64,000 nucleotides of DNA from Caproiciproducens sp. CPB-2. Lineage in GTDB: Bacteria > Bacillota > Clostridia > Oscillospirales > Acutalibacteraceae. Shown one piece after another: positions 1 to 11,554 of the stretch. The stretch spans positions 2,976,001 to 3,040,000 of the forward strand of contig NZ_CP142860.1 of the NCBI RefSeq assembly GCF_036287215.1, in the 5' to 3' direction. Made by a program: the position numbers and the translations under genes. The notes below the pieces were generated by a model. The model ran no database searches. It worked only from the letters and a program-made list of their open reading frames with translations, and was not told where the DNA came from. Numbering within the stretch: the stretch's first letter is position 1; every line of letters starts with the position of its first letter.

Positions 1-292
1 TTCCGAAGGTGACGATGTCTTTCCATGCCGCCGCGCCGGGCTTGAGCTGCCAGATGCGGCAGCTTTTCAGGATGGCGGGCATGGCGTCCTCCGCAACAGA
101 CGGTGAATGACCGCTGGAGAGCCGCTCGTATACGCCGTCCGTCCAACGAGGCGACAGGCTGTTTTTTGACAGCCAGCGATTCAGCTCATCGTTTTGAAAC
201 ATGGTGTCCACCACGGCAGTATCCCGGTCGATATATCCGGCCGGGTTGCCGTAGTACCAGACGCAGCCGCTTCTCTGTTCAATGCCTGACAC
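1..292 (-). CDS. Partial mobile-element protein, possible YodL-domain start (C-terminus off the window)
   Basis: An open minus-strand frame runs off the left edge. A GTG at 290-292 is the likely start because an AAGGAGG sequence lies eight bases upstream of it; an in-frame GTG at 299-301 overlaps that ribosome binding site and is less likely. About 97 residues are visible. The last part contains CRIWQLKPG, which resembles the opening of YodL-type domains found in proteins of Firmicutes conjugative elements, but too little is present to be sure. It is the last visible gene of the minus-strand run that starts with the methylase gene, 14 bases after the DUF3849 gene. Function unknown. Confidence 0.55.
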   Translation of the reverse strand, partial: MSGIEQRSGCVWYYGNPAGYIDRDTAVVDTMFQNDELNRWLSKNSLSPRWTDGVYERLSSGHSPSVAEDAMPAILKSCRIWQLKPGAAAWKDIVTFG

Positions 293-305
293 GGCATCCA
301 CCTCC

Positions 306-1046
306 TTAGTTCATGGTCATTCCTCCGATCTCAGGCGCTGTCTGCCCGGTCAGCTCCGCCAGCCTTTCCCACGCCCAATCCGGCAGACATTCATCCCGGA
401 GTACGCCGATAAAGTCATGACGGTTCCAACGGGTTTCCTCTCCGTCCCCAAGGCAGGTGCAGCGGACGGAACGGCCAATGTCGTTTGGCCTGCAGCCGAA
501 ACCGTCGTGGGCATACCAGAGCTGATCCTCCGACCTCCAGCATTCCTCCTTCAGAATATCCGGCGAGAGTACCAGCACCTTGCCGGTAAAATCCAGCTTA
601 CTGGTGTCCTGCTCGCAACTCGTACTATCGAACAGACCCAGGTCCTGAACCGCCTCACGGTATTGATTGACGAACTGTTCCAGAAGTTCAGGGCGGACAT
701 CCACGCAGATAGTCTCCGGCTTTTTCTCCCAGCCGAGATCCCGAACAGGAGTCCGCCGCGCCCATGCCATGTTTTCCGGAGAATAGCGGCCGTCAGCGCC
801 ATTGACCAGCAGGGTTGTGACCAGCACCCAGTTGACGCGCTTATATCCGAACTCGGCAAGCACGCTCTGCACGCATCCCGGATTCAGATTCTTGCCATTT
901 AAGTCACGGCTGATGGTTTCTTCGATGACCGCGCGGCAGTCGGCGTTGGCTTTTCTGCTCTCCCGCCACAGCTTTATTTCCTTCTGCCGCCGCGCTTCCT
1001 CGAGAGAGTAGGGGTAGAGACCGGTGTTATTCACCATAGATGACAT
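306..1046 (-). CDS. DUF3849-type mobile-element protein
   Basis: This 246-residue protein opens with YPYSLEEARRQKEIKLWRES followed by a helix with NADCRAVIEETI, the pattern of DUF3849 proteins from Firmicutes integrative and conjugative elements. No catalytic motif or membrane segment is visible and the function of the family is unknown. The ATG at 1044-1046 sits only three bases after GGAGG, so an ATG at 1035-1037 is an alternative start. The gene overlaps the upstream gene by about 20 bases, so the two are probably co-transcribed. The C-terminus, PEIGGMTMN, belongs to the methionine-rich tail motif shared by several proteins of this island. Confidence 0.7.
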   Translation of the reverse strand: MSSMVNNTGLYPYSLEEARRQKEIKLWRESRKANADCRAVIEETISRDLNGKNLNPGCVQSVLAEFGYKRVNWVLVTTLLVNGADGRYSPENMAWARRTPVRDLGWEKKPETICVDVRPELLEQFVNQYREAVQDLGLFDSTSCEQDTSKLDFTGKVLVLSPDILKEECWRSEDQLWYAHDGFGCRPNDIGRSVRCTCLGDGEETRWNRHDFIGVLRDECLPDWAWERLAELTGQTAPEIGGMTMN

Positions 1047-1536
1047 CGTCCTCCATCAGATGTTCCTCCAGTTCGCAGACGCAGACGCCCGCCGTTACCA
1101 GCATCTCGAGCAGGTCGTCGGGGACGTCGGAGATGTCATGCTCATAATTGGCGCGACCTACGAGGATCAGACCCTCGTCCGGGTCGGCGTAAGCCTCCAG
1201 CTTGGCGCTGCGGGGAATATTCAACTCGTCCAGCAGCTCGGGCGGGATCTTGATCTCCTGTTCGCCCTCCAGCGTCTCATTGCAGGCGTCGCAGCCACCG
1301 CAGATGCCGCAGACGTCGGCAAGGTGCGTCGTCAGGGACTCCGCCAGTCCTGAGATTGATTCGATGGCTTCGATCAGTTCATAGGTGGTCATTTTTCCCT
1401 GCAGGACGGCGACGCAGTGCCGGAGCTGGTGCAGCTCCGCGCATTTTGCCTCCGCGATGCCAGAACCCTCCAGAATCGGAGAAGGAATGGTCATGCTGAG
1501 ATCAGTTCTTTTCGTGGTGTTCTGAGTGTTTTTCAT
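1027..1536 (-). CDS. Hypothetical protein with AbrB-like hairpin and cysteine cluster
   Basis: A 169-residue acidic protein. Around residues 85-92 it has a cysteine cluster, CGICGGCDAC, that could bind metal. It is followed by a stretch (IKIPPELLDELNIPRSAKLE) resembling half of an AbrB/MazE swapped-hairpin DNA-binding fold. A GGAGG six bases before the ATG fixes the start. The start overlaps the stop of the upstream methylase gene in an ATGA arrangement, so translation is probably coupled. A role as antitoxin or regulator is possible from the AbrB resemblance, but no toxin partner is recognisable beside it. Function not known. Confidence 0.6.
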   Translation of the reverse strand: MKNTQNTTKRTDLSMTIPSPILEGSGIAEAKCAELHQLRHCVAVLQGKMTTYELIEAIESISGLAESLTTHLADVCGICGGCDACNETLEGEQEIKIPPELLDELNIPRSAKLEAYADPDEGLILVGRANYEHDISDVPDDLLEMLVTAGVCVCELEEHLMEDDVIYGE

Positions 1537-2387
1537 AGTGCATCCTCCGTATAATCATTTTCTGTTTTCTGCCCATAATCGAAAAGGGTCATCTGACTCG
1601 GTTCGCAGCGGGCCCGTTCCCCGAGGTCGTAATTGCCGATGAGCAGCTCCGCGAACTGGCTGTTGGGGTCATATCTCTGCTTGATATTGTTGATGCGGGT
1701 GGTGGAGAGGATCTGAATTTCAGGCGCGTCATACAACTCGCGGATGAACTCGTCGTCGTTATAGGAGAGCAGGAACTTGCCCTGTATGCCGAGAAGCAAG
1801 TCCCGGAGACGAACATGGTCTTCTTCGGTGAAACCTGCTTCTCCGACGTTTTTGTAATAGCTTTCAGTGGCGTGATAGGGCGGGTCGCAATAAAAAAAGC
1901 TCACCGGGCGATCATACTGCCGGATGAGCTTCTCAAAATCCTTATTCTCCACCACGACCTTTGCCAGCCGTCGATGTGCCTGCTCGATGAGGGGGAAGTT
2001 TGCCCGCATATCATGGGGCTGACTACCGAAGCTGTCAAGACTGGAGGCGTAACTAAAGCGGATAAGCTGGTAAAACCACGCCGCTTTCTGCACATCGGAC
2101 GCGGGGCTGTCTCGGGCGAGACTATCCCTGACCAGTTCAAAATCTTCTCTGGAATTCAGAACGTATTGGAGCTTTTCCATCAGCTCCCGCGGTTTGTCCC
2201 GCACACAGCGATAGAGGTTGACGAGCAGACCGTTGAAGTCGTTGTAGACCTCGAAATCGTTGCCGGGCGGTTTTGCGAAGAGTATCCAGCCCCCGCCGCC
2301 GAACACCTCGATGTAGCGTTCATAGTACAGCGGGAACATGGGGAGAATTGTGTCGCGCAGGGCTTTTTTCCCGCCGATCCAGCTCAT
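1533..2387 (-). CDS. DNA adenine methyltransferase, Dam/D12 class
   Basis: The 284-residue product is a class D12 N6-adenine DNA methyltransferase. The AdoMet-binding motif I is seen as FGGGG near residue 30. The catalytic motif IV is YCDPPY near residue 168. The N-terminus, SWIGGKK, matches the usual WxGGK opening of the family. Length is typical for M.DpnII/Dam-like enzymes. No restriction endonuclease is adjacent, so it is best read as an orphan methylase of the mobile element, protecting it from host restriction or altering methylation-dependent regulation. The start codon lies just after the stop of the upstream winged-helix gene, and its GGAGGT is about 20 bases away, unusually far. The recognition sequence cannot be read from the protein. 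Confidence 0.9.
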   Translation of the reverse strand: MSWIGGKKALRDTILPMFPLYYERYIEVFGGGGWILFAKPPGNDFEVYNDFNGLLVNLYRCVRDKPRELMEKLQYVLNSREDFELVRDSLARDSPASDVQKAAWFYQLIRFSYASSLDSFGSQPHDMRANFPLIEQAHRRLAKVVVENKDFEKLIRQYDRPVSFFYCDPPYHATESYYKNVGEAGFTEEDHVRLRDLLLGIQGKFLLSYNDDEFIRELYDAPEIQILSTTRINNIKQRYDPNSQFAELLIGNYDLGERARCEPSQMTLFDYGQKTENDYTEDAL

Positions 2388-2395
2388 GAAGCTGT

Positions 2396-2728
2396 TCAGA
2401 GGTCATCACCTCCGCCCATGGGCAGGGAGGTCTGACCGGGATCGAACCGTGTACGCGCTTTTTTCAGCCCGCGGATCGCGCCGCTGATGCCGGCGATGCG
2501 GCTGGACATGTGTCTGATGGTTCGGAGCAGCTCCGCATCTGTTTCCGCGTAAAAATAACCCTTTTCATTACTGCAGATCGGAACACCGTCCCTGCGCAAG
2601 GCATTGATAAGTGCGCGCAGTTCTGCTCCTTTGATGCCAAACGCCATTTCAAGCTCCCGACTGACGGCCGCATATTGCTCGCCGCAATGAAAAATTTCCA
2701 TGTACCCTGCGAGCTCACTTTTGAGCAT
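2396..2728 (-). CDS. Small winged-helix-like protein of the mobile element
   Basis: A 110-residue protein with a GGAGG five bases before the ATG. The first two thirds look like a winged helix-turn-helix: helices around VSRELEMAFGIKGAELRALINAL are followed by a wing around GVPICSNEKGYFYAET. The C-terminal part is a basic helix. Similar small proteins sit next to methylase or replication genes in phages and conjugative elements. It is the gene directly upstream of the Dam-type methylase and is probably in the same transcript. DNA binding is inferred from the fold pattern only. The terminator at 2769-2814 separates it from the gene upstream. Confidence 0.6.
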   Translation of the reverse strand: MLKSELAGYMEIFHCGEQYAAVSRELEMAFGIKGAELRALINALRRDGVPICSNEKGYFYAETDAELLRTIRHMSSRIAGISGAIRGLKKARTRFDPGQTSLPMGGGDDL

Positions 2729-2768
2729 TTTTGCCTCCTTTTCCGGCGCGCTTTTCCGAAAAAGGGCA

Positions 2769-2814
2769 TAAAAAAGCAGGGGCCTTTGTCCCTTTCGGAA
2801 AAACGGCCCCTGCT
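2769..2814 (-). terminator. Intrinsic terminator after the 60-residue ORF
   Basis: A perfect 10-bp stem (2775-2784 with 2805-2814) is followed on the minus strand by a run of T residues. It stands between the small gene at 2830-3012 and the winged-helix gene at 2396-2728, so it ends transcription arriving from upstream on the minus strand. Confidence 0.85.
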
Positions 2815-2829
2815 ATGTAATTACACTAT

Positions 2830-3012
2830 TTACTTATGCGTTTTCTGATATGGTGAATCTGGGTGTTCATAGAATTGGCGTGCCTCCTCAATGGTGACCT
2901 GCTGCGTATTTTGCTTATTACACCAGAGAAGCAGGTCAAGGATGCCCCCATTGCTGCCGTAACGGTCCCCGCGCTTGGAGATGGCGTTAAGATATTCATT
3001 CAACGTTTTCAT
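2830..3012 (-). CDS. Hypothetical 60-residue protein
   Basis: A short minus-strand frame, MKTLNEYLNAISKRGDRYG onwards, preceded by a modest GGAAGAG ribosome binding site. No family is recognised. The composition is soluble and helical with no membrane segment. A strong terminator follows it, which supports it being the end of a transcription unit. It lies in the leftward unit that starts beside the XRE regulator and its operator cluster, so it may be controlled by that regulator. Confidence 0.5.
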   Translation of the reverse strand: MKTLNEYLNAISKRGDRYGSNGGILDLLLWCNKQNTQQVTIEEARQFYEHPDSPYQKTHK

Positions 3013-3066
3013 GGTTCAATTACTCTTCCTTCGGATTGATGCCGCTTACAGAGACGGCAGCAGTCA

Positions 3067-3285
3067 TTATTTTTTCAGGCTTATATCTGTTTCAATGGCG
3101 CTCTCGCTGATGTCCTTCTTGTGTACGATCTGAAATATCTTTTGCGGCTGGGGCGGATTGCCGCCTGCCGCTTTCCACCCGGCAAGAAAGGCGATGCGCA
3201 CCATGGCGAACAGCGCGTTTTCCGCCTGATCGTATTCCCGACGGTCAATGAAATCACTGAACGCCTTTTCAAAATCGTTATTCAT
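3067..3285 (-). CDS. Hypothetical 72-residue mobile-element protein
   Basis: The frame is open from further upstream, but the ATG at 3283-3285 has a GAGGTG nine bases before it and is the better start, giving MNNDFEKAFSDFIDRRE onwards. The longer version would run through the palindrome at 3301-3332, which is more likely an operator. The protein is predicted soluble, with a helix around ENALFAMVRIAFLAGWKAAGG. Small proteins of this look occur in conjugative elements of gut Firmicutes, but no function is known. It is the first gene of the leftward unit facing the XRE regulator. Confidence 0.55.
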   Translation of the reverse strand: MNNDFEKAFSDFIDRREYDQAENALFAMVRIAFLAGWKAAGGNPPQPQKIFQIVHKKDISESAIETDISLKK

Positions 3286-3300
3286 TATTGGATACACCTC

Positions 3301-3415
3301 TGTCGTTAATACGGAATACCGTATTAACGACATGCTACCACACTTTTCTTGCAATGTCTACGGAATTCCGAATGTAATTTTTGCGCGTATAGCAGATAAT
3401 AAATTCGGAATACCG
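3301..3415. promoter_or_regulatory. Operator cluster between divergent genes (three CGGAATWCCG sites)
   Basis: Three copies of the palindromic decamer CGGAAT(A/T)CCG lie at 3312-3321, 3361-3370 and 3406-3415. The first is the centre of a longer perfect inverted repeat with 14-bp arms (3301-3314 and 3319-3332). The sites fill the gap between the leftward gene at 3067-3285 and the rightward XRE gene at 3433. This is the usual arrangement for a repressor that controls both itself and the divergent operon. Binding is inferred. Confidence 0.7.
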
Positions 3416-3432
3416 TAGGTGGAGGTGAAAAC

Positions 3433-3675
3433 ATGGATAACAGCACACTGATCTCGCAGCGCATCTTGGAACTGTGCCGCGAGAGGAATATAACGGTTGG
3501 AAAGTTGTGCAGCACAGCGGGGACCACGGCGTCGACTGTCCATGATATTGTGGCCGGGGTAACGAAGAATCCGCGTGTTTTCACACTTAAAAAGCTATGC
3601 GATGCACTCGGCATTACACTTTCTGAGTTTTTTGATACGCCCGAATTTAATAGCATGGATGTTGAACTGGACTAA
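3433..3675 (+). CDS. XRE-family helix-turn-helix regulator
   Basis: An 80-residue DNA-binding protein consisting of little more than one HTH_3/XRE domain. The helix-turn-helix is seen at ITVGKLCSTAGTTASTVHDI, followed by the family's typical LKKLCDALGITLSEFF. A GGTGGAGGTG ribosome binding site precedes the ATG. It is divergent from the leftward mobile-element genes, and three identical palindromic sites stand just upstream. It is therefore most likely an autoregulated repressor of the element, comparable in position to immunity repressors of phages and conjugative elements. An intrinsic terminator follows directly. Confidence 0.85.
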   Translation: MDNSTLISQRILELCRERNITVGKLCSTAGTTASTVHDIVAGVTKNPRVFTLKKLCDALGITLSEFFDTPEFNSMDVELD

Positions 3676-3703
3676 AGAGCTTGCCGTCAGACGGCTCTTT
3701 TCT
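3674..3703 (+). terminator. Terminator of the XRE regulator gene
   Basis: AAGAGC at 3675-3680 pairs with GCTCTT at 3694-3699, with further pairing inside, and T residues follow. It begins inside the stop codon of the regulator and ends where the convergent gene at 3703 stops, so it may serve both directions. Confidence 0.7.
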
Positions 3704-4695
3704 TATGTCATAGTCATTCCGAAAAAAGTCTGTCCCACCTTTCCAACATAGGCGCTGTCATCGCGGGTCAGCAGGAAACCGCGCCGCTCCAGCAGAGCTG
3801 CGGCATATTCCTCATAGTGAAAGCTGGCCGCAACGGATTCAGGCAGGGCAACGCCCTGCTTTTTTAGCTCCTGCTCCGCATATTCCCGCAGGGAAACGTC
3901 GGGGATGATCTCATAGCGATTTAGGCTTTCGGCGATGTCCAGCGCCTCCGCCAGCGTGCGGCAATCCTCGTACTCCAGCGCGCCGGCGTACAGCTCCATA
4001 AAATTCTGCATGCCCTGGCCACGCTCGTCCAAGACAAAGCCCAGATTTTGCCCGTCGTAGACGAGGTCGGAAGCGCGGTCATACTGCTCCGTCAGGTCGC
4101 CGGCATCCGGCAAAATACACCGTGCCTCCAGCAGCGTGCATTCGTCCACGCCCTTGACACCCAACTCGTCCAGCGTTATTCGCATTTCGTCCGGCCTGCC
4201 ATCGTTTGCGTCCTCATAGTCCGGCAGCCGGAGCCACACGCCGTCGGGACAGCGTTCCGACGCCAGTTTCACCTTTACACTCCAGCCGTCGTCCACGCAA
4301 GCGGCAAGATTTGTGCCGTCGTAGCGGGTTGCGGGTCCCTGATAGGAATACTCTACATAGCAGTTGCCGATAAAAACGCCGGGATGCTCGTCCTCATAAT
4401 TCTTGCCCAGCTGTTCCAGATCAATGTAATCGCCAAGCTCCTGTGGGAGCTGCGCGTCATAATAGAGACAGAACCGTCCCAAGGCCTCATAACTTCCGGC
4501 CGGGTAGCATACCTCGTAATCGGACATGGTCTGAAAAATGTTGATGACATCTCTGGCGTCGCAAGCGGGTTTACCCATCAGAGCCGCGCTGAGAATGAGC
4601 GATTCCTTGACCGATAGCGTTTCCATCCGCTCCCGCAGCCACATCATTTCCTGCGGCGTAGAGGGAAGCCGGTTCAACGCTTCAAATGTTTTCAT
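3703..4695 (-). CDS. ArdA-like antirestriction family protein (paralogue 1)
   Basis: A 330-residue acidic protein. Around residues 95-125 it carries GDYIDLEQLGKNYEDEHPG followed by an aromatic Gly-x-x-Tyr-Val stretch. This matches the block D-h-x-x-h-G-(K/R) ... G-x-F-x-x-x-G-Y-V that characterises ArdA proteins and two neighbouring genes here. ArdA proteins mimic B-form DNA and block type I restriction enzymes; whether this longer relative keeps that activity is inference. The ATG follows the stop of the upstream paralogue directly (TAAATG) with GGAG nine bases before it, so the genes are coupled. The C-terminus ends FFGMTMT, one of the shared tail motifs. Confidence 0.65.
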   Translation of the reverse strand: MKTFEALNRLPSTPQEMMWLRERMETLSVKESLILSAALMGKPACDARDVINIFQTMSDYEVCYPAGSYEALGRFCLYYDAQLPQELGDYIDLEQLGKNYEDEHPGVFIGNCYVEYSYQGPATRYDGTNLAACVDDGWSVKVKLASERCPDGVWLRLPDYEDANDGRPDEMRITLDELGVKGVDECTLLEARCILPDAGDLTEQYDRASDLVYDGQNLGFVLDERGQGMQNFMELYAGALEYEDCRTLAEALDIAESLNRYEIIPDVSLREYAEQELKKQGVALPESVAASFHYEEYAAALLERRGFLLTRDDSAYVGKVGQTFFGMTMT

Positions 4696-5811
4696 TTACA
4701 GCATCTCCATTCCGTCCAGAGTTGGTTCTTCAAAGGGTGCCAGTATGGGCCGAAAATCGTCACGTGCCATGTGCCCGTAGGGCGTAATGACGGCGTTGTC
4801 ACGCTCCAACAGATCCCGACCGTATGCGGGCAGGTTCACATACTGCTGAAGCCGTTCCATATCGTTGTCACCGGCGATAAAGTTCAGTTCTGAAAGTGCG
4901 GCATCCTCCGGGCTGGAGATTTTGGCGTCCAGCATGTAATGATCCAGATTGTCCAGCAGAGCGACAGAGCTTTGTAGGCTATTGCATTTCGTTGCGGCCA
5001 GCACCGCCTTATAGCGGAGCATCTCTCTGTCCGTCATGCCGGACAGCCGCCCGGCGAATTCATTGACGACTGCAATGCTGCCGGATGCCTCGATTGACCC
5101 CATCAGCTGCGGAATCCGGCAGTCCAGACAGCGGCACAGCGTCGTATCGGGCAGCTTTGCCTGCGGCAATTTGAGCATACTGCCATCCTCCGACTCCAGC
5201 AGGATCTGATAGTCCGGCTGGTTGGGCGTGAGGTCAAGCGCGAAAAACGCCTCGTTCAGCTCTGTGTGCTGCACCACATAGCCCTTTTCCGTGAAAACGC
5301 CGCCCTCACCAATGCGGGCCTCCCGTCCAATCTTTTCAAAATCCAGCAGCTCGAACACCTTGTCCGGGAGCTGCTCCACCTCCGGCACAAAGCCGTTCTT
5401 GGCATAGAATCTGCCAAGCTGGGCGTCGTTCAGCGCATCCGCCACATGACAGCAGTCCGTGCTGTAGGCAAGGTCGATGAGCCGCAATATGGGAATGAGC
5501 CCCTGCTTTTTATTGACCTCCATCTGCACAAGGCCCTTGAAGGAAACCTGCTGCCGCTCGTCCAGCTCCGAGAGCTTCTGCGCCAGGGCGTTGAGCTCGT
5601 AGAGACCGGCGTTCCCAGAGAGCAGCGGTGCCAGATCCTCGAAATCATAGTATTCATTGATCTGCAGATAGGGCGCTTCGCCCTCGTCCAGCCGCAGCTT
5701 GTCCAGCGCGTCCAGCAGCTCATAGGGCGAAGCGGGCAGATCCAGATCCGCATACGCCTCGCTATACGGCGTGTTGGTTCTGGCAAGGTACACATTAAGA
5801 ATTTTACGCAA
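4696..5811 (-). CDS. ArdA-like antirestriction family protein (paralogue 2)
   Basis: A 371-residue acidic protein starting at a TTG codon with GGAGG eight bases upstream; the start overlaps the stop of the previous gene by eight bases. It contains FEKIGREARIGEGGVFTEKG followed by YVVQ, the clearest copy here of the ArdA signature. A second region is rich in Asp, Glu and Leu, as expected for a DNA mimic. Its organisation parallels the genes at 3703-4695 and 8860-10041, so the three look like diverged duplicates. The C-terminus, EEPTLDGMEML, is a variant of the shared methionine-rich tail. Antirestriction activity is inferred. Confidence 0.65.
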   Translation of the reverse strand: MRKILNVYLARTNTPYSEAYADLDLPASPYELLDALDKLRLDEGEAPYLQINEYYDFEDLAPLLSGNAGLYELNALAQKLSELDERQQVSFKGLVQMEVNKKQGLIPILRLIDLAYSTDCCHVADALNDAQLGRFYAKNGFVPEVEQLPDKVFELLDFEKIGREARIGEGGVFTEKGYVVQHTELNEAFFALDLTPNQPDYQILLESEDGSMLKLPQAKLPDTTLCRCLDCRIPQLMGSIEASGSIAVVNEFAGRLSGMTDREMLRYKAVLAATKCNSLQSSVALLDNLDHYMLDAKISSPEDAALSELNFIAGDNDMERLQQYVNLPAYGRDLLERDNAVITPYGHMARDDFRPILAPFEEPTLDGMEML

Positions 5812-6787
5812 GGGTCATTCCTCCCATCTTCGGTTCTTCCGGTTCATAGGCTTTCGGGTCCGCGCCGGGGACTGACCAGCCTGCCATGCTGCCGCACTCC
5901 ATAGCCTGCCGCTGGGCCGCCGTCACGCCGAGGCGTTCGTTGTTGTAGTCGGCCAGTTCCTTATTTTTCTCTCTGCTGTCAGTGCTCCAGTCGCTTTTGT
6001 AGTAGCCGCTCTCACCGCGCTTGATGCAGATGAGAGCGCCGGTGTCGGGCAGCGTGGAGAAGCACAGCTCCGGCAGCCCTTCCGCCAGTTTTGGGACGAA
6101 GCATTCCTGCTCGGTTCGGATGTTCCAGCTGCCCTCGCTGCTCCAGAAATGGGCGTAGAGCTCGCGGTCGCCGACTTTGATTTCTCTTTGCTCAAAGCCC
6201 TCGCCGAAGCCATCGCTGGCCTGCCCAGAGATGTACTCCTTCAGCGTGTACAGCTCCTTCGGCGTCAGCTCGCCGGTCACCTGACATTCCGCCACACCCC
6301 AGAGACTGCCGTCCCGCACCTCGGCGGTGAAATCACAGGACTTGACCTTCTGCTCCACGCTGTCGTTTTTATCGTAATAGTGCATGAGGCCGCGTTCCGT
6401 TTCGGTGGACAGCCGCTCCCGCATCAGCGCGGCGACAATGTGGTCCACATAGCCTGCCGCCGTGTGGTTGTCCAGCTCCGTGGGTTCGTCCTCGGTGTCG
6501 CCCCATTCATTTTTCTCGTAGCAATCCACGGTCATGGGCATATACAGCTTGAGGAGATGCGTTTCGGGCGGCAGGACGGTGAAGCTGTCCTCGCCGATGA
6601 CCAGCCCAAGGCTGCTGCCGTTGTCCCACTTCACATGGAATGTTCCGACGTCGTCAATGCAGTCCAGCGTCCCCATCGTCCCCGGCTCCATGGGGTGGTA
6701 CGGGTCTTTCATTTCCCGAAGTTTAATGCGGCTGCCTACGGGGAACTGATCCCGCAGGAATGACAGCCATTCATTCGAAATCGCCAT
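5804..6787 (-). CDS. DUF4314-domain mobile-element protein
   Basis: The frame opens further up, but the ATG at 6785-6787 has GGAGGT seven bases before it and gives a 327-residue protein, MAISNEWLSFLRDQFP onwards. Residues 15-75 form a small beta domain (VGSRIKLREMKDPYHP, then PGTMGTLDCIDD, then KWDNGSSLGLV), the DUF4314 pattern common in conjugative elements. A second, unnamed domain follows with an acidic character and aromatic residues. No catalytic motif is visible. It lies between the LPD28-like and ArdA-like genes in one tight minus-strand operon. The C-terminus is PEEPKMGGMTLA, matching the shared tail. Confidence 0.75.
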   Translation of the reverse strand: MAISNEWLSFLRDQFPVGSRIKLREMKDPYHPMEPGTMGTLDCIDDVGTFHVKWDNGSSLGLVIGEDSFTVLPPETHLLKLYMPMTVDCYEKNEWGDTEDEPTELDNHTAAGYVDHIVAALMRERLSTETERGLMHYYDKNDSVEQKVKSCDFTAEVRDGSLWGVAECQVTGELTPKELYTLKEYISGQASDGFGEGFEQREIKVGDRELYAHFWSSEGSWNIRTEQECFVPKLAEGLPELCFSTLPDTGALICIKRGESGYYKSDWSTDSREKNKELADYNNERLGVTAAQRQAMECGSMAGWSVPGADPKAYEPEEPKMGGMTLA

Positions 6788-6788
6788 T

Positions 6789-8132
6789 TTACATACCTCC
6801 AAAAGTCATTTCTGAACCGATCGGTTCCAGCCCCGCGATGCTGAGCTGCAATCGCGCGTCCGCTTCCTGTACGGTGCTGTCTGCGGCGAATCGGGGATTG
6901 TCCCGCCAACCCTCGTCCAGATGCGTTTCCCCGTCCTGGGCGATTGCCAGATAGACGGTGGCGACGTCATTCTTAGTGACGCACAGGCGCTTACTGTCGC
7001 AGGCAAGGCCGTTGAAGCGGTCAATTGCCCCGGTGAGGGAATCGGTGTCATGCCGTGTTTCACCCTCGCAGGCGAAGTTCTCCACCACAAACCAGCGGTA
7101 ACTGTGGGGCAGATTCGGATTCTCCGCGTTTTTAAGCGTCTCGCGGCCACGCTGCGTCAGGCCGTAATCCTCCAGCGGACGCGGGTTTTCCTCGCCGAAC
7201 AGATCGTAGAGGATATCGTCCGCGCCTTTTCGGACGGCGGGATCGTCCGTCAGCACCTCGTACTGAAAGCCGGAGGTGGGCTTGTATGGCAGCTCGTCGC
7301 GGATGACCTGCAAAAAGATGGCCGGATCGGTGTAGGCCAGCGTTTCACCGCTGGCAAAGTTGACCTTGCCGATGACGTGCGGCTCCTGCCGCAGCTCCTG
7401 CTGGCGCTTATCAAAGCAGGTCAGGTACGCCTGATAGTCTCCGGGCTTGGGATTGCAGCGCAGGCAGTAGCGGTAGTTCTCGGTTTCCGCCACATAGCCG
7501 TACTGGCCGGAATTCTTGCTTAACTCCCCGCCGTTGTCGTAGCAGTAGTTGGACATGGAGGGCAGGTCCTTCAACACGGTTTTCCGGAATTCATCCACCA
7601 CGCCATTCAGCTCCACTTTGAACTCCGGGGAGTTTAACGCCTCGTCGCCGCGCGGCCACCAGGTGTGCCAGAATTCTTTGCCGCCATGGCCAAAATCCAT
7701 TCGGACATGGCCAATACAGCCCAGCTCTGCGTCCTTCTCCGGCGTCATGGCATAAAAAAGGCCCGCCTCTGATACAGAAGCGGGTCGAAGCTTGAATGTT
7801 TGATTGTCCGCCGGGTAAGGGATATCATGTTCCTCACAGAACGCCTGAAAGGTCAGGTGCTCGTCAAGGAAATCCAGACTGTTTCCCAGTCGCAGGAAGC
7901 CCTCGCCGGGGATGTTGATTTTTTCATGGGTCAGGACGGAGCCGGCGTGGTTAATCACCACATACGGCTCAATGGTGACCGGCTCGCCCGGTTCGTCGTC
8001 GCTGCCGCGCAGGTCGTAGCAGTACCAGCCGTCCGGGACGCTGTTAGTCTGAATGCGGGCGCTGGTAAACAGCGCAGGTTTACCGAACAGCTCAATGTGT
8101 TCGTATTCTTCTTTTCTGGCATTTACGCGCAT
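6789..8132 (-). CDS. LPD28-like large polyvalent-protein-associated domain protein
   Basis: The best start is the ATG at 8130-8132, nine bases after GGAG; the ATG nine bases earlier touches the ribosome binding site. The 447-residue product opens with a domain containing ELFGKPALFTSARI, then VPDGWYCYDLRGSDDEPG and VVINHAGSVLT, which I recognise as LPD28, a domain of large polyvalent proteins of conjugative elements. A second region (HVRMDFGHGGKEFWHTWWP onwards) and a C-terminal region (YRWFVVENF onwards) are conserved-looking but unnamed to me. These domains are thought to act in the recipient or in defence evasion. The tail is SEMTFGGM. It heads the operon ending at 3703. Confidence 0.65.
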   Translation of the reverse strand: MRVNARKEEYEHIELFGKPALFTSARIQTNSVPDGWYCYDLRGSDDEPGEPVTIEPYVVINHAGSVLTHEKINIPGEGFLRLGNSLDFLDEHLTFQAFCEEHDIPYPADNQTFKLRPASVSEAGLFYAMTPEKDAELGCIGHVRMDFGHGGKEFWHTWWPRGDEALNSPEFKVELNGVVDEFRKTVLKDLPSMSNYCYDNGGELSKNSGQYGYVAETENYRYCLRCNPKPGDYQAYLTCFDKRQQELRQEPHVIGKVNFASGETLAYTDPAIFLQVIRDELPYKPTSGFQYEVLTDDPAVRKGADDILYDLFGEENPRPLEDYGLTQRGRETLKNAENPNLPHSYRWFVVENFACEGETRHDTDSLTGAIDRFNGLACDSKRLCVTKNDVATVYLAIAQDGETHLDEGWRDNPRFAADSTVQEADARLQLSIAGLEPIGSEMTFGGM

Positions 8133-8323
8133 AGACTTCATCTCCTTGTATGTTTTTTATAGCTATACAACATACCACAGTGTGGCGGCGATAGCTATTG
8201 TTTCTTGCGTGGGGAGGGCTCAGATGTTATACTGAACCCACAGACTTATCGGGATTTGATGAACAGAAAGTTGAATGTTATAGGTATAGTACCGACTACT
8301 TACTAAAATTGGAGATGATACCA

Positions 8324-8611
8324 ATGAAACAATACCATGTTATTAGTGCCAAAAATTTCGGGTATGAAAGTGATCTGGGTGATGGAACATATGACTATTT
8401 TGTATTTCCAGCAGATGAATTTAGTCAAAGTGACATTATGGGCTTGTTTGTAAGTGTTACTAAATACACACAAAAAAATAACAACGAATATCCTTATACT
8501 GCACATGAATATCAGGGTTCACAATATTGCAGTGACCTATACGGAAAACAATATTATCAGATAATATATGACGGATTATTTGATGAAGACAATGTTCCGT
8601 ATATCCCATAA
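8324..8611 (+). CDS. Hypothetical protein, AT-rich
   Basis: GGAG nine bases before the ATG at 8324 makes this the likely start of a 95-residue protein, MKQYHVISAKNFGYESD onwards, rich in Tyr, Asp and Asn. No family is recognised and no signal or membrane segment is seen. The DNA is clearly more AT-rich than its neighbours and the gene is on the opposite strand, so it looks like a separate insertion into the element. It is followed after about 50 bases by the SHOCT-like gene. Small Tyr/Asp-rich proteins in such positions are sometimes anti-defence proteins or immunity proteins, but nothing here proves that. Confidence 0.5.
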   Translation: MKQYHVISAKNFGYESDLGDGTYDYFVFPADEFSQSDIMGLFVSVTKYTQKNNNEYPYTAHEYQGSQYCSDLYGKQYYQIIYDGLFDEDNVPYIP

Positions 8612-8660
8612 TGTATAGATTCCCGTTTTGCGAGCAGATCACCAAGGGAGGAAATACGCC

Positions 8661-8834
8661 TTGAATTCTGATCCAGAATCCATAAAACAAGCGCCGCTGA
8701 CCAACGGGGACTTATATCGCCGTCAGATGGCCATGCTAAAGAGCTTTCTCGAACACGGAGCCATCTCGCTGGAGCAGTACCGCACCAGTGCCGATGGCTT
8801 AACTCGAAAAATGCATTTACAGCCGAAGAAATGA
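8661..8834 (+). CDS. SHOCT-like short helical protein
   Basis: A TTG start at 8661 is chosen because GGGAGGA lies eight bases before it. The 57-residue product ends with LKSFLEHGAISLEQYRTS followed by LTRKM. This helix-turn-helix hairpin pattern (LxxFLxxGAIxxxQYxxSxxxLxxKM) is typical of SHOCT-like C-terminal domains and occurs as stand-alone small proteins in Firmicutes mobile elements. SHOCT domains are thought to bind nucleic acid or mediate oligomerisation. A hairpin terminator overlaps the stop codon. Its function is not known. Confidence 0.6.
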   Translation: MNSDPESIKQAPLTNGDLYRRQMAMLKSFLEHGAISLEQYRTSADGLTRKMHLQPKK

Positions 8835-8850
8835 TCCTTCGGCTGTTTCT
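8820..8850 (+). terminator. Terminator after the SHOCT-like gene
   Basis: Nine-bp arms CAGCCGAAG (8820-8828) and CTTCGGCTG (8837-8845) form a hairpin followed by T-rich sequence. The stem overlaps the stop codon of the plus-strand gene and separates it from the convergent gene ending at 8860. Confidence 0.75.
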
Positions 8851-8859
8851 TTGCCCGTA

Positions 8860-10041
8860 TTACTCCATATTCATCTGCTGCCCCATATTCTCGGCAGGGT
8901 CGCCCTGCATCAGCTCGTCCAAACGGAGCGTGCCCTGATAGGCCACATAGCCCCGATCATTGAATTGTCCCTGCTCGTTTTCCATGCACTCCTTGCCGTA
9001 TTTGGCGAAGTCGATGTAACCGGCGAGATTTTCATCGTACTCATAATGGCCGGAATCCATGATCATGTACTTGCCGTATTCCTCCGGCGTATGTACCTTG
9101 GGAACGTAGTCGAACTGCTCCAACTCCTTCGCCAGATTGGTGATTTGGCTGGCCTGTTCCGGCCTGGTGAACAGGACGACCGCGCCCAGCTTCTCTCGCT
9201 CGGCCTGATTCAGCGGCTGGATGGCACGGCACATCTCATTGAGATCGGTCAGCCTTTCGTTGTCAAAATTCAGCGCCGCGTCAACTTCTTCCGGAAGCTC
9301 GCTTTCCAAAAAACGCAGGCACATATCTTCATAAAAGTTGCCCCCTGCTCGAGCTAAGGCACGCGCCTGCTGTATCTGTGTGATCGGCAGGTAGAGATAA
9401 GTTGCCGGACTGTCTGCCGACGTATATCGTGAACTCATCTCCACCTCCATAATGCAATCTTCGTAGCAATATTCCGGGAAAATACGGCCGTCATAGAGCT
9501 GCGACATTTCAAATCCGTTGTCATAGACCAAGCCGTAAGGTGTGACCCGTCCGACCTCGCCGTCGAGCAATGCCAGCGCCACCGAGCGGAAGTCCTTGCC
9601 CTGCATTTCCTCTATGGTCGCCCCGCCGCCCAGCGTCAGGTAGTGCCTGCGTCCAAGAGATTCCAGATTGTTAAAGTCCGTGACCACGGTGACCTCCTGA
9701 CAACAGAAGGTCAGGTTGATGAACTCATCGATACCGTGGAGATCCAGCCGGGAGGCCATGCCCTGAAACTGCGTTTTCTCATATTTATCGAAACTGTCCA
9801 GCCGTTTGGCGAGATAGTCCAGCTCATCAATATTGGTTACTGTCCTTTCCGTGTTCTTGAGAACCGGCCAGTGGTCGGAAATCTCATCAACTCGACAGTC
9901 ACGCTTTAATGGATCGCCAATCTCCAACGCCTCCAGCATTTCGATGATCTCATCGTACTGCTCCGCCGGGATGGGGAAAGGTACGGTAAGAACGCCGTAT
10001 TCTGGGTGCTGGGCATTGCTTAAAACCGCTTGATACTGCAT
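8860..10041 (-). CDS. ArdA-like antirestriction family protein (paralogue 3)
   Basis: A 393-residue acidic protein with AAGGAGG before the ATG. Near residues 345-375 it contains AGYIDFAKYGKECMENEQGQ followed by FNDRGYV, the ArdA signature block shared with the genes at 3703 and 4696. A second domain resembles the N-terminal part of paralogue 2, including short blocks around ERLTDLNEMCRAIQ and LKRDCRVDEISDHWPVLKN. It is third in the leftward run that starts at 11125. The C-terminus, ENMGQQMNME, is a looser version of the methionine-rich tail. Blocking of restriction enzymes by DNA mimicry is the expected role but is inferred. Confidence 0.6.
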   Translation of the reverse strand: MQYQAVLSNAQHPEYGVLTVPFPIPAEQYDEIIEMLEALEIGDPLKRDCRVDEISDHWPVLKNTERTVTNIDELDYLAKRLDSFDKYEKTQFQGMASRLDLHGIDEFINLTFCCQEVTVVTDFNNLESLGRRHYLTLGGGATIEEMQGKDFRSVALALLDGEVGRVTPYGLVYDNGFEMSQLYDGRIFPEYCYEDCIMEVEMSSRYTSADSPATYLYLPITQIQQARALARAGGNFYEDMCLRFLESELPEEVDAALNFDNERLTDLNEMCRAIQPLNQAEREKLGAVVLFTRPEQASQITNLAKELEQFDYVPKVHTPEEYGKYMIMDSGHYEYDENLAGYIDFAKYGKECMENEQGQFNDRGYVAYQGTLRLDELMQGDPAENMGQQMNME

Positions 10042-10053
10042 ATGTGTGCCTCC

Positions 10054-10425
10054 TTACATCATCATTCCAAAGGTTATTCCGGGTTCATCATCGTGAACCT
10101 CTGTCTGCGGTACGGCATCCAGTGAGAGCATATCAAGAAGCTGCTTCCCGCCAATCTGACAAGCCGCCTTAAAAGCCCCGTTGATGTCATCGTATTGACG
10201 CTCCATTTTGGGCGAGAAAACTGCCTCGCCGATATGCGGAAATGCGCCCTCGTATGTGCCGACCGTCAACTTGCCGACCGGGGACAGTCTCATATAGACA
10301 CCGTCCTCGCCGCCCGTGTAGTACAAGGCACCGTTTCCATTGAGTCGGGTAATGCTGTCCTCGACCCAGCGGCGGGCGTTGTTGGTGGTGATAGCTTTCC
10401 AATACTCAAATTCATGCTGATCCAT
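10054..10425 (-). CDS. Hypothetical mobile-element protein with methionine tail
   Basis: A 123-residue soluble protein with no recognised domain. A central beta-rich part (ALYYTGGEDGVYMRLSPVGK) is followed by a helix and an acidic linker, and it ends DDEPGITFGMMM, a clear member of the shared C-terminal motif. GGTGAAAC precedes the ATG. It sits 12 bases upstream of paralogue 3 and 16 bases downstream of the gene at 10442, so all three are probably one transcript. The presence of the tail on a protein unrelated in the rest of its sequence is the main point of interest. Confidence 0.6.
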   Translation of the reverse strand: MDQHEFEYWKAITTNNARRWVEDSITRLNGNGALYYTGGEDGVYMRLSPVGKLTVGTYEGAFPHIGEAVFSPKMERQYDDINGAFKAACQIGGKQLLDMLSLDAVPQTEVHDDEPGITFGMMM

Positions 10426-10441
10426 GTTTCACCAATCCTTA

Positions 10442-11125
10442 TCACATCATCTGCTGCTGAGAGGCGCCCTGCTCCATGGCCGCCTTCATCCGTTCAGCAT
10501 AGTCAGGCACCATCTCCATGATCTGCGTTTGGATTTCATCGATCCGCTCCTCTTGATCACAGGTGAGCGGTATGTCCGATGTCATCGTATCGGCACAGCA
10601 GCGGTAGATCTCGATGAGCTGCTCCGGCGTGAACTGCTCTTGCTCCTGCACAAGCCCGGAGCGAAGCGCAAAATCGTGTTTTGCCGCAGCGTAGTCATTT
10701 CCGAAATAGTGTCCGAGGGTAAGACCGTCCTTGTCATATGTCCACTGCCAGGTTGTTAACTGGACGCCGTGACCGCTCTCCATGCCGCCGAGGACATATC
10801 CGTTGAAGTCCGCCAGCAGCTTATACGGCGCGTCAAGGCTTGACGCTTTCAACGGAGGCGCGTTTTCCATAAGTTTCATGTATTCGGCTGCGGTTGCGGC
10901 AACTGATGTCGCTTTTTCAAGAGCGTCGGACATTACATCTGTGGAAACATCCTCGTGCCGATACCGAGTTCCTCCATTCTTGGTGATCTCACAGAGGGGG
11001 TTGCCGTGGAAGGAGACTTGGAGCAACTCGCCATCACCGGCGTGCGTATCGAAACCCTCGTGTGCGAGAAGGATGCTCGCTTCCTGAAAGTATTTGCCTT
11101 GTATTGTGTTGTCGGTTGATTTCAT
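10442..11125 (-). CDS. Hypothetical mobile-element protein, first gene of leftward operon
   Basis: A 227-residue acidic soluble protein preceded by GGAGG. No known domain is recognised. The N-terminal half has a beta-rich part (LLQVSFHGNPLCEITKNG, then TRYRHEDVS), the middle contains YKLLADFNGYVLGG and WQWTYDKDGLTLGHYFGNDY, and the C-terminal third is helical. It ends GASQQQMM, a weak version of the methionine-rich tail. It is the gene closest to the tRNA, and a strong hairpin with a T-run lies about 35 bases upstream on the same strand, so its transcription could be controlled by conditional termination. Confidence 0.6.
   Translation of the reverse strand: MKSTDNTIQGKYFQEASILLAHEGFDTHAGDGELLQVSFHGNPLCEITKNGGTRYRHEDVSTDVMSDALEKATSVAATAAEYMKLMENAPPLKASSLDAPYKLLADFNGYVLGGMESGHGVQLTTWQWTYDKDGLTLGHYFGNDYAAAKHDFALRSGLVQEQEQFTPEQLIEIYRCCADTMTSDIPLTCDQEERIDEIQTQIMEMVPDYAERMKAAMEQGASQQQMM

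Positions 11126-11477: not shown

Positions 11478-11554
<77 letters not shown>

Follow-up and report, generated by a model that had tools for sequence, protein, structure and literature searches.

A methionine-rich C-terminal tail on unrelated proteins and relaxases of one class of integrative conjugative elements: a candidate signal for type IV transfer

Introduction

Short C-terminal signals carried by otherwise unrelated cargo are known from Gram-negative type IV systems, such as the Arg motif of Agrobacterium VirE2 and VirF and the E-block of Legionella Dot/Icm substrates. Both hydrophobic and positively charged C-terminal signals have been recorded, and the Xanthomonas XVIPCD, which is also C-terminal, has a Gln-rich tail and contacts VirD4 (PMC10025392). 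Effectors accompany DNA through type IV systems, with pSa ArdC and TraC1 being transferred as proteins (PMC5512222), and the F-type pED208 system sends ParA, ParB, SSB, PsiB and others to the recipient (PMC8406263). For Gram-positive bacteria, a 2025 review calls the experimental evidence on the contact between relaxosome and type IV coupling protein (T4CP) limited (PMC12857230). Here we describe a methionine-rich C-terminal tail in an integrative conjugative element of Caproiciproducens sp. CPB-2, which extends leftwards beyond the start of the 64,000-nucleotide stretch that was analysed (G000:C1:2976001-3040000, hereafter the window). To our knowledge, little has been established about the features that earmark proteins and relaxases of Gram-positive bacteria for type IV transfer.

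Like the Gram-negative signals, the tail is short, C-terminal and borne by unrelated proteins, but it is Gram-positive, more uniform, and present on many relaxases. Its Glu/Gln-rich linker resembles the E-block, and a second, basic tail described below resembles the Arg type. The methionine tail itself has no Agrobacterium-type positive charge, R and K occurring in its linker at 0.89 and 0.75 of their frequency in the protein bodies. Whereas XVIPCD spans ~120 residues with several motifs, the common part here is shorter than 10 residues plus the linker, and GGM(T/E)M is not among the type IV signals described in the consulted part of PMC10025392. The polyvalent proteins contain the same kinds of domains as those found here (LPD, ArdA and ArdC types); the word 'methionine' is absent from the main text of that paper, and the passages of it that were consulted give no common C-terminal motif (PMC5512222). 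The pED208 system is Gram-negative, and its ParB cargo is matched here by basic-tailed ParB-domain proteins beside relaxases of family PF03432; no common short tail is mentioned in the opening of the abstract (PMC8406263). No described motif of this kind was found in the literature searched, a coverage that mostly excludes subscription journals. GroEL itself finishes in C-terminal GGM repeats, and it shares Gly-Gly-Met and a flexible end with the tail. The tail, however, tracks the element class, and Pfam scans of the scanned bearers gave no GroEL domain.

Results

A tail concentrated at the C-termini of element proteins

Open reading frames (ORFs) were called with our own script, and some of the calls are antisense or truncated. 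Six of the 14 called element ORFs of the window have GM in their last eight residues, compared to 5/330 control ORFs (4/292 across 15 stretches of chromosome from this genome and 1/38 in the chromosomal part of the window; Fisher P = 6e-7). The same rule is met by 2/101 ORFs in loci L003-L007, and GM occurs in 1.1-1.9% of internal 8-mers. An earlier note on this DNA had suggested looking for C-terminal enrichment in related elements, and this was found: GM lies in the last eight residues of 100/494 ORFs in 32 related loci, although this is not an unbiased sample, because loci L118-L123 were fetched via the tail pattern and one of the six search peptides for L023-L054 adjoins the DUF4314 tail. 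Homologous elements are thus not free of the tail, nor are chromosomal proteins equally tailed. Over the 134,542 residues of the related loci, GM[TESDKN][MLFI] was found 64 times in last-8 segments and 17 times elsewhere; together with the family clusters described below, this places the motif at the extreme C-terminus of unrelated cargo. The tail is real, C-terminally concentrated and far beyond chance. Chance as its cause is ruled out by the counts against the control and by the Fisher test; about 1.4% of ORFs meet the GM rule by chance, and at the control rate ~8 of the 119 unique tails may be chance matches.

The consensus is a Gln/Glu/Pro-rich linker followed by M-G-G-M-(T/E)-(M/L)-x. When the 119 unique tails are anchored on GM, 77 carry G at -1 and 41 carry M at -2; position +2 is T or E in 55/100, and position +3 is M or L in 70/84. 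Relative to the bodies, the linker is enriched in Q (2.6-fold), P (1.8-fold) and E (1.5-fold).

A genome search with the pattern GGNGGNATGRMNATGNNNTRR matched 64/394 genomes, and the reversed control matched 7 times in 6 genomes. These counts were discarded and are not used as evidence, because many of the inspected matches were GroEL-like ends, short antisense frames, or the motif followed by TGG instead of a stop codon. Phage and plasmid collections yielded 12, 10 and 5 records, which are distant or partial and uninformative on tails. A faecal contig filed as phage, MT835617.1, carries relatives of both LPD28 and DUF3849; it is perhaps a misfiled conjugative element.

Families with and without the tail

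A strict tail was defined as GM or MxM in the last eight residues, and a Met-type end, by a wider rule, as M in the last three residues or a strict tail. Chromosomal ORFs meet these rules in 6/328 and 23/328 cases, respectively. Clustering of 1,084 ORFs gave 62 clusters with at least three members, of which 9 have a strict tail in at least half of their non-redundant members and 45 in none. The tailed families are ArdA-like (46/68), DUF4314 (21/25), LPD28 (13/16), DUF3849 (9/10 and 4/4), SpoVG (6/8), Toprim (2/4) and amidoligase (2/3). The YodL cluster reaches 3/7 under the strict and 7/7 under the wider rule, and the cluster of MobL relaxases 8/20 and 15/20. A further DUF3849 cluster, the third, ends in APVMM and has no strict tail (0/3). 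Tails were also seen on individual proteins, either with DUF7768 or with a weak match to Ank.

No strict tail was found among non-redundant members of the D12 methylase family (0/20), of two operon neighbours with no assigned function (0/10 and 0/14), or of the machinery families TrbL (0/10) and VirB4-like (0/8), and one was found among the T4CPs (1/7); the tail is thus largely absent from the machine parts that were identified. All eight members of the element-borne SpoVG cluster meet the wider rule. Among the SpoVG genes with the highest scores in the order, which were presumed to be chromosomal, 24/30 ends could be read; none has a strict tail, and three have M in the last three residues (L191, L202 and L203). 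A further 11 SpoVG ends, from elements and chromosomes mixed, include one ending in QSM (L212) and one with M in the last three residues (L215).

The claim of the earlier note that the bodies are unrelated stands, with one qualification. Pfam confirms DUF3849, ArdA, DUF4314 and LPD28, but three of the eight proteins are ArdA-like, so that the six strict bearers represent about five families. A single family-bound C-terminal domain, inherited by common descent, is ruled out by the cluster survey and by the alignment of DUF3849 proteins, whose ends agree although their bodies have diverged.

In that 12-row alignment (A1), the bodies share 32-55% identity with the window protein, while no row differs at G241, G242 or M243 and M245 is almost invariant; the preceding linker is not invariant. 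Four rows (L118, L119, L120 and L123) lack the first half and have extra sequence ahead of the tail, yet end in GGMTMT, GGMEMT or GGMNMT. AlphaFold gives the window protein a mean pLDDT of 84.7, with values below 50 at residues 1-4, 105-108 and 240-246; a flexible, exposed end was in this way seen in one protein. An end that is conserved yet predicted to be disordered suggests a short binding motif. Near-identical tails among close relatives, and the plausibility of recombination at gene ends, would also fit a neutral tail spread by common descent or by repeated shuffling of 3' ends. A neutral disordered end should drift, however, and GGM is invariant in the 12 rows while the linker varies, which makes neutral spread extremely improbable.

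Overlap with ribosome-binding sites

Alternatively, the tail could be a by-product of tight operon packing, with GGAGGNATG at a gene end providing the Shine-Dalgarno (SD) and start region for the gene that follows and reading as Gly-Gly-Met incidentally. In the window, the tails at 5804-5824 and 6789-6800 resemble the SD sequence of the next gene, and their codons fit such an overlap exactly; at 5804-5824 the next gene is the ArdA gene, and a protein motif and an apparent translation signal lie on the same bases. A possible start (an ATG, GTG or TTG with an open frame of 60 codons or one that runs off, -25 to +20 nt from the stop) lies close to 94/119 unique tails, as compared to 262/504 untailed ORFs of the same loci and 117/290 chromosomal ORFs. 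An SD-like word in the last 27 nt is found in 72/119, 148/504 and 65/290 of these, respectively, and in 69 of the 94 tails with a close start. GGA accounts for 39% of the Gly codons in tails and 13% in bodies. The tight downstream genes and the GGA skew point to selection at the RNA level on part of the tails.

A possible start at SD distance is not present behind every tail. In 25/119 none lies close by, an SD-like word is present in 3 of these 25, and their Gly codons are mixed (GGC 10, GGA 6, GGG 6 and GGT 3; a few of these tails probably match by chance). Two tailed genes of the element, at 3703 and at 301 (YodL), have no start nearby, and the tightly packed operon genes at 1027, 1533 and 2396 have no tail. 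The residues of the DUF3849 tails are kept although their codons vary, and the MxM ends of relaxases are not SD-like. Ribosome-binding-site overlap as the sole cause was rejected on account of the 25 start-free tails and retained as a partial cause; we regard the by-product explanation as very unlikely. In many operons the tail bases appear to do double duty, the residues being kept also where they do not.

Tails on relaxases

MobL relaxases were read in 24 of 30 loci, the others running off or containing a stop. Eleven of the 24 end in Met (control 5/330) and 13 are Met-type (control 23/328), with ends such as WGMSMQ, NMGGMTMGGW, DGFTMSM and EEQDFKMHM, often after DDHEEEQ. Relaxases of PF03432 differ: among 30 loci taken from the matches listed, which belong to a longer list, 18 end in R (e.g. 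KERGAER, RNYER and RIEYER), 9 of the 30 in ER, and 2 in Met. Four PF03432 relaxases have Met ends, L226, L237 and L240 from the 30 and L274 from the genome of the window, a hint that tail and relaxase family can separate. The last of these (L274:9932-10954, G000 ~1686 kb) ends in EQEQDMNLTM, unlike most of its family.

Searches by tblastn with three machine proteins of the Met class and a T4CP of the basic class gave no match in 13 MobL loci. A strict tail is found there on 8 of the 13 relaxases as compared to 4/~198 other ORFs, in loci that were picked partly for tails and some of which are closely related. This bears on the possibility that the tail docks onto an element-encoded partner, such as an assembly or relaxosome hub in the donor or recipient, rather than serving as a secretion signal. 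Tailed proteins include relaxases, Toprim and DNA-directed proteins, which, by analogy with SSB tails, could collect on the transferred strand. The tailed relaxases of loci with no detected machine are better explained by recognition by a foreign machine, with the stated caveat on how the loci were picked, and we consider the hub unlikely.

A basic tail and its match with relaxase class

A second, basic kind of end, defined for the ORF census as a last residue R with at least three K/R in the last eight, is found on 42/296 ORFs around PF03432 relaxases and 14/128 ORFs in DUF3849 loci of the PF03432 kind, as compared to 8/328 chromosomal, 12/623 Met-class and 7/358 MobL-locus ORFs. Strict Met tails show the reverse, with 4/296 and 2/128 around PF03432, 6/328 in the chromosome, 135/623 in the Met class and 23/358 in MobL loci; regions L158-L177 and L255-L272 had been selected with relaxase tails already seen. 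Bearers of the basic tail include an ArdC-type protein (QQKRRERER) and a ParB-domain protein, both adjoining a PF03432 relaxase, as well as YodL-DUF3846 (DRKERER), DUF3848 and DUF3849 proteins. A possible start lies near 40 of the 60 basic tails, in some cases as an ATGA overlap, and 20 have none; gene coupling may therefore shape part of the basic ends too.

DUF3849 and YodL proteins occur with both relaxase classes and were compared using profiles that exclude the tail and, for basic ends, the looser rule of at least three K/R in the last eight. There were 31 DUF3849 rows, 30 of them from the 31 of one search and one from another, and 30 YodL rows with loci; the C-terminus was unreadable in 3 and 13, respectively, and rows with no relaxase within 40 kb were excluded, leaving 10 near MobL and 16 near PF03432. 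Relaxase positions were transferred by hand, the PF03432 search covered genomes to about G178 (G196 and G222 lie beyond it), and two of the 16 (L318 and L330) share the same end. Met-type ends were found in 9/10 near MobL and 2/16 near PF03432 (Fisher P = 1.6e-4, kinship ignored), and basic ends in 0/10 and 10/16. For DUF3849 alone, the Met-type counts are 5/6 and 1/10 (L305, KGKEMEL) and the basic counts 0/6 and 7/10; for YodL, they are 4/4 and 1/6 (L304, KLRDMER) and 0/4 and 3/6. No strict Met tail occurs among the 16 near PF03432. As far as these sequences go, the tail tracks relaxase class rather than protein family.

Genome G121 has both kinds, a DUF3849 protein ending in KKREPER 3.6 kb from a PF03432 relaxase and another ending in SMEGMKME 21 kb from a MobL relaxase. 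The genome of the window also carries a PF03432 element with basic ends (L273). The two tails of G121 bear on a further explanation, in which the tail binds a host partner, either as a degron for a host protease or through a chaperone contact. Flexible hydrophobic C-termini are typical of protease and chaperone contacts, and the pattern search also met GroEL-like C-termini, GGMDMY (L072 and L081; identity judged by eye). A host-directed tag, however, need not differ between elements of one host, nor sit on relaxases, and a host partner seems to us very unlikely.

The T4CPs were compared over all 30 loci (one not found, five unassigned), extending an earlier, smaller set of 15/30 loci within ~12 kb. 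Seven T4CPs near MobL form one group with 60-92% identity and support 1.0; the 17 near PF03432 share 35-95% identity among themselves and 19-26% with the MobL group. Net charge ranges from -8 to +7 near MobL (1/7 negative) and from -33 to +5 near PF03432 (13/17 negative, 4/17 positive). The Met-class coupling proteins are thus one group and the tails track the relaxase class, with few lineages and a charge that differs only partly.

The element in the window

All eight ORFs listed in the earlier note are present on the minus strand with the C-termini given there, including the looser Met-rich tails of two of them (Table 1). The starts proposed for DUF4314 (ATG 6787) and LPD28 (ATG 8132) are possible, and somewhat longer ORFs also exist.

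Table 1. Tailed and untailed genes of the element in the window
Feature	Position	Strand	C-terminal tail	Remarks
YodL protein, start only in window	1..301 (G000 2975741-2976301)	-	DFGMKMTL	
DUF3849 protein	306..1046	-	PEIGGMTMN	GGMTMN codons 309-326; GGAGG past the stop serves the next gene
Operon neighbour	1027..1536	-	none	cluster 0/18 tailed
D12-class adenine methyltransferase	1533..2387	-	none	cluster 0/23 tailed; non-redundant 0/20
Operon neighbour	2396..2728	-	none	cluster 0/17 tailed
ArdA-like protein	3703..4695	-	FFGMTMT (3706-3723)	no possible gene start close downstream
ArdA protein	4696..5811	-	PTLDGMEML (4699-4716)	next ATG adjoins the stop
DUF4314 protein	5804..6787	-	PKMGGMTLA (5807-5824)	GGAGGAATGACCCTTG doubles as apparent ribosome-binding site and TTG start of next gene
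LPD28 protein	6789..8132	-	SEMTFGGM (MTFGGM 6792-6809)	GGAGGTATGTAAAATG doubles as apparent ribosome-binding site of next gene
ArdA-domain protein	8860..10041	-	MGQQMNME (8863-8886), looser	no possible gene start close downstream
Protein with no Pfam family	10054..10425	-	GITFGMMM	
Protein with no Pfam family	10442..11125	-	QQQMM, looser	GM in last 8 in 4/11 cluster members

The ArdA match of 3703-4695 is weak (24.1 bits, Pfam cut-off 27). Relatives of the 4696-5811 tail in L023-L025 read QGGMEMM, QGGMEML and LGGMEML, and relatives of 10442-11125 finish in HNQGGMRFE and SPEQSGMTMK. The nearest named full-length matches of the DUF4314 protein are from Oscillibacter (94% and 90% identity).

The left part of the element encodes a MobL relaxase with Sel1 repeats, a T4SS-DNA_transf coupling protein, a VirB4/TraG-like ATPase, TrbL_5, a Toprim_2/DUF3991 protein and an integrase. 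Left of the window, SpoVG ends in SCQSM, a protein with no Pfam family in MQMGQQM, and the Toprim_2/DUF3991 protein in KMTMEME. Two related proteins have the Met-rich ends EMQMGQQM (L007:2792-3790, no Pfam match) and KMQMGQQM (L025:6827-7729).

A tRNA-Met gene at 11478-11554, just beyond the last element gene, is likely the integration site of the element. ARAGORN also calls a tRNA-Lys at 6939-7031, on the opposite strand inside the LPD28 gene, which is probably a false positive. Tad/Flp-pilus-like genes (RcpC/CpaB and a T2SSE ATPase) lie near the tail cluster, left of the window (L007:9401-12539, G000 2965401-2968539), and such clusters were found again in up to 6-8 loci; a Tad/Flp-like pilus within a conjugative element seems unusual. 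A BREX BrxC-type ATPase adjoins the transfer module (L006:3970-7497, G000 2939970-2943497), and a defence system may therefore move together with the element.

Discussion

The pattern of bearers supports the suggestion of the earlier note that the tail is a translocation or partner-docking tag. We think it probable that the tail is a class-specific signal at the C-terminus by which proteins dock onto the type IV transfer machine or are translocated by it, with the cargo moving along with the DNA; binding to the T4CP and delivery are what we infer from the sequences. Integrative conjugative elements of a single class (with a MobL relaxase, TrbL_5 and one coupling-protein group) would use it as a short, flexible signal, in which a disordered Gln/Glu/Pro-rich linker presents M-G-G-M-(T/E)-(M/L) to the T4CP or an adaptor. 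Many MobL relaxases would use similar ends to ride the channel with the DNA, including those of small elements with no detected transfer-machine gene. ArdA, DUF3849, DUF4314, LPD28, YodL, SpoVG and the Toprim protein would be tailed so that ready-made copies reach the recipient with the strand, acting there as anti-restriction and establishment proteins. A second element class, with PF03432 relaxases, may often use a basic K/R..EPER tail instead. We propose that relaxase and cargo are tailed, the machine rarely so, and the two classes differ because the label is read by the transfer machine.

Several observations, besides the frequent close starts, SD-like words and GGA codons described above, weigh against a transfer signal. 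About one third of the ArdA-like members have no tail, nor do one DUF3849 protein adjoining MobL (L309), 11/24 MobL relaxases, which are not Met-type, and the MobL relaxase of the window's own element, which ends in QRQDYIIPY. A membrane-like protein ending in SLGGMF also meets the strict rule (4/6), probably by accident. The charge contrast between the T4CPs is weaker under a uniform rule than in the smaller, hand-picked set. Finally, whole element lineages carry tail class and relaxase class together, so that the independent events may be few.

More tentatively, and at slightly less than even confidence, these ends may form a two-letter C-terminal address code in Gram-positive gut conjugative elements, one letter being the Met type (GGMTM) and the other the basic type (KKREPER), with a separate transfer machine to read each. 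The addresses would be carried by relaxases and by an anti-defence kit delivered with the DNA; a domain would switch address as it passes between element classes, and mobilizable elements would copy an address to hijack the machine.

If the tail is such a signal, a short motif readable in sequences would make it possible to predict which proteins conjugative elements deliver, and searching for it would help uncover new anti-defence proteins. It would also show which mobilizable element can use which machine, and would provide a small peptide for direct tests of binding and delivery.

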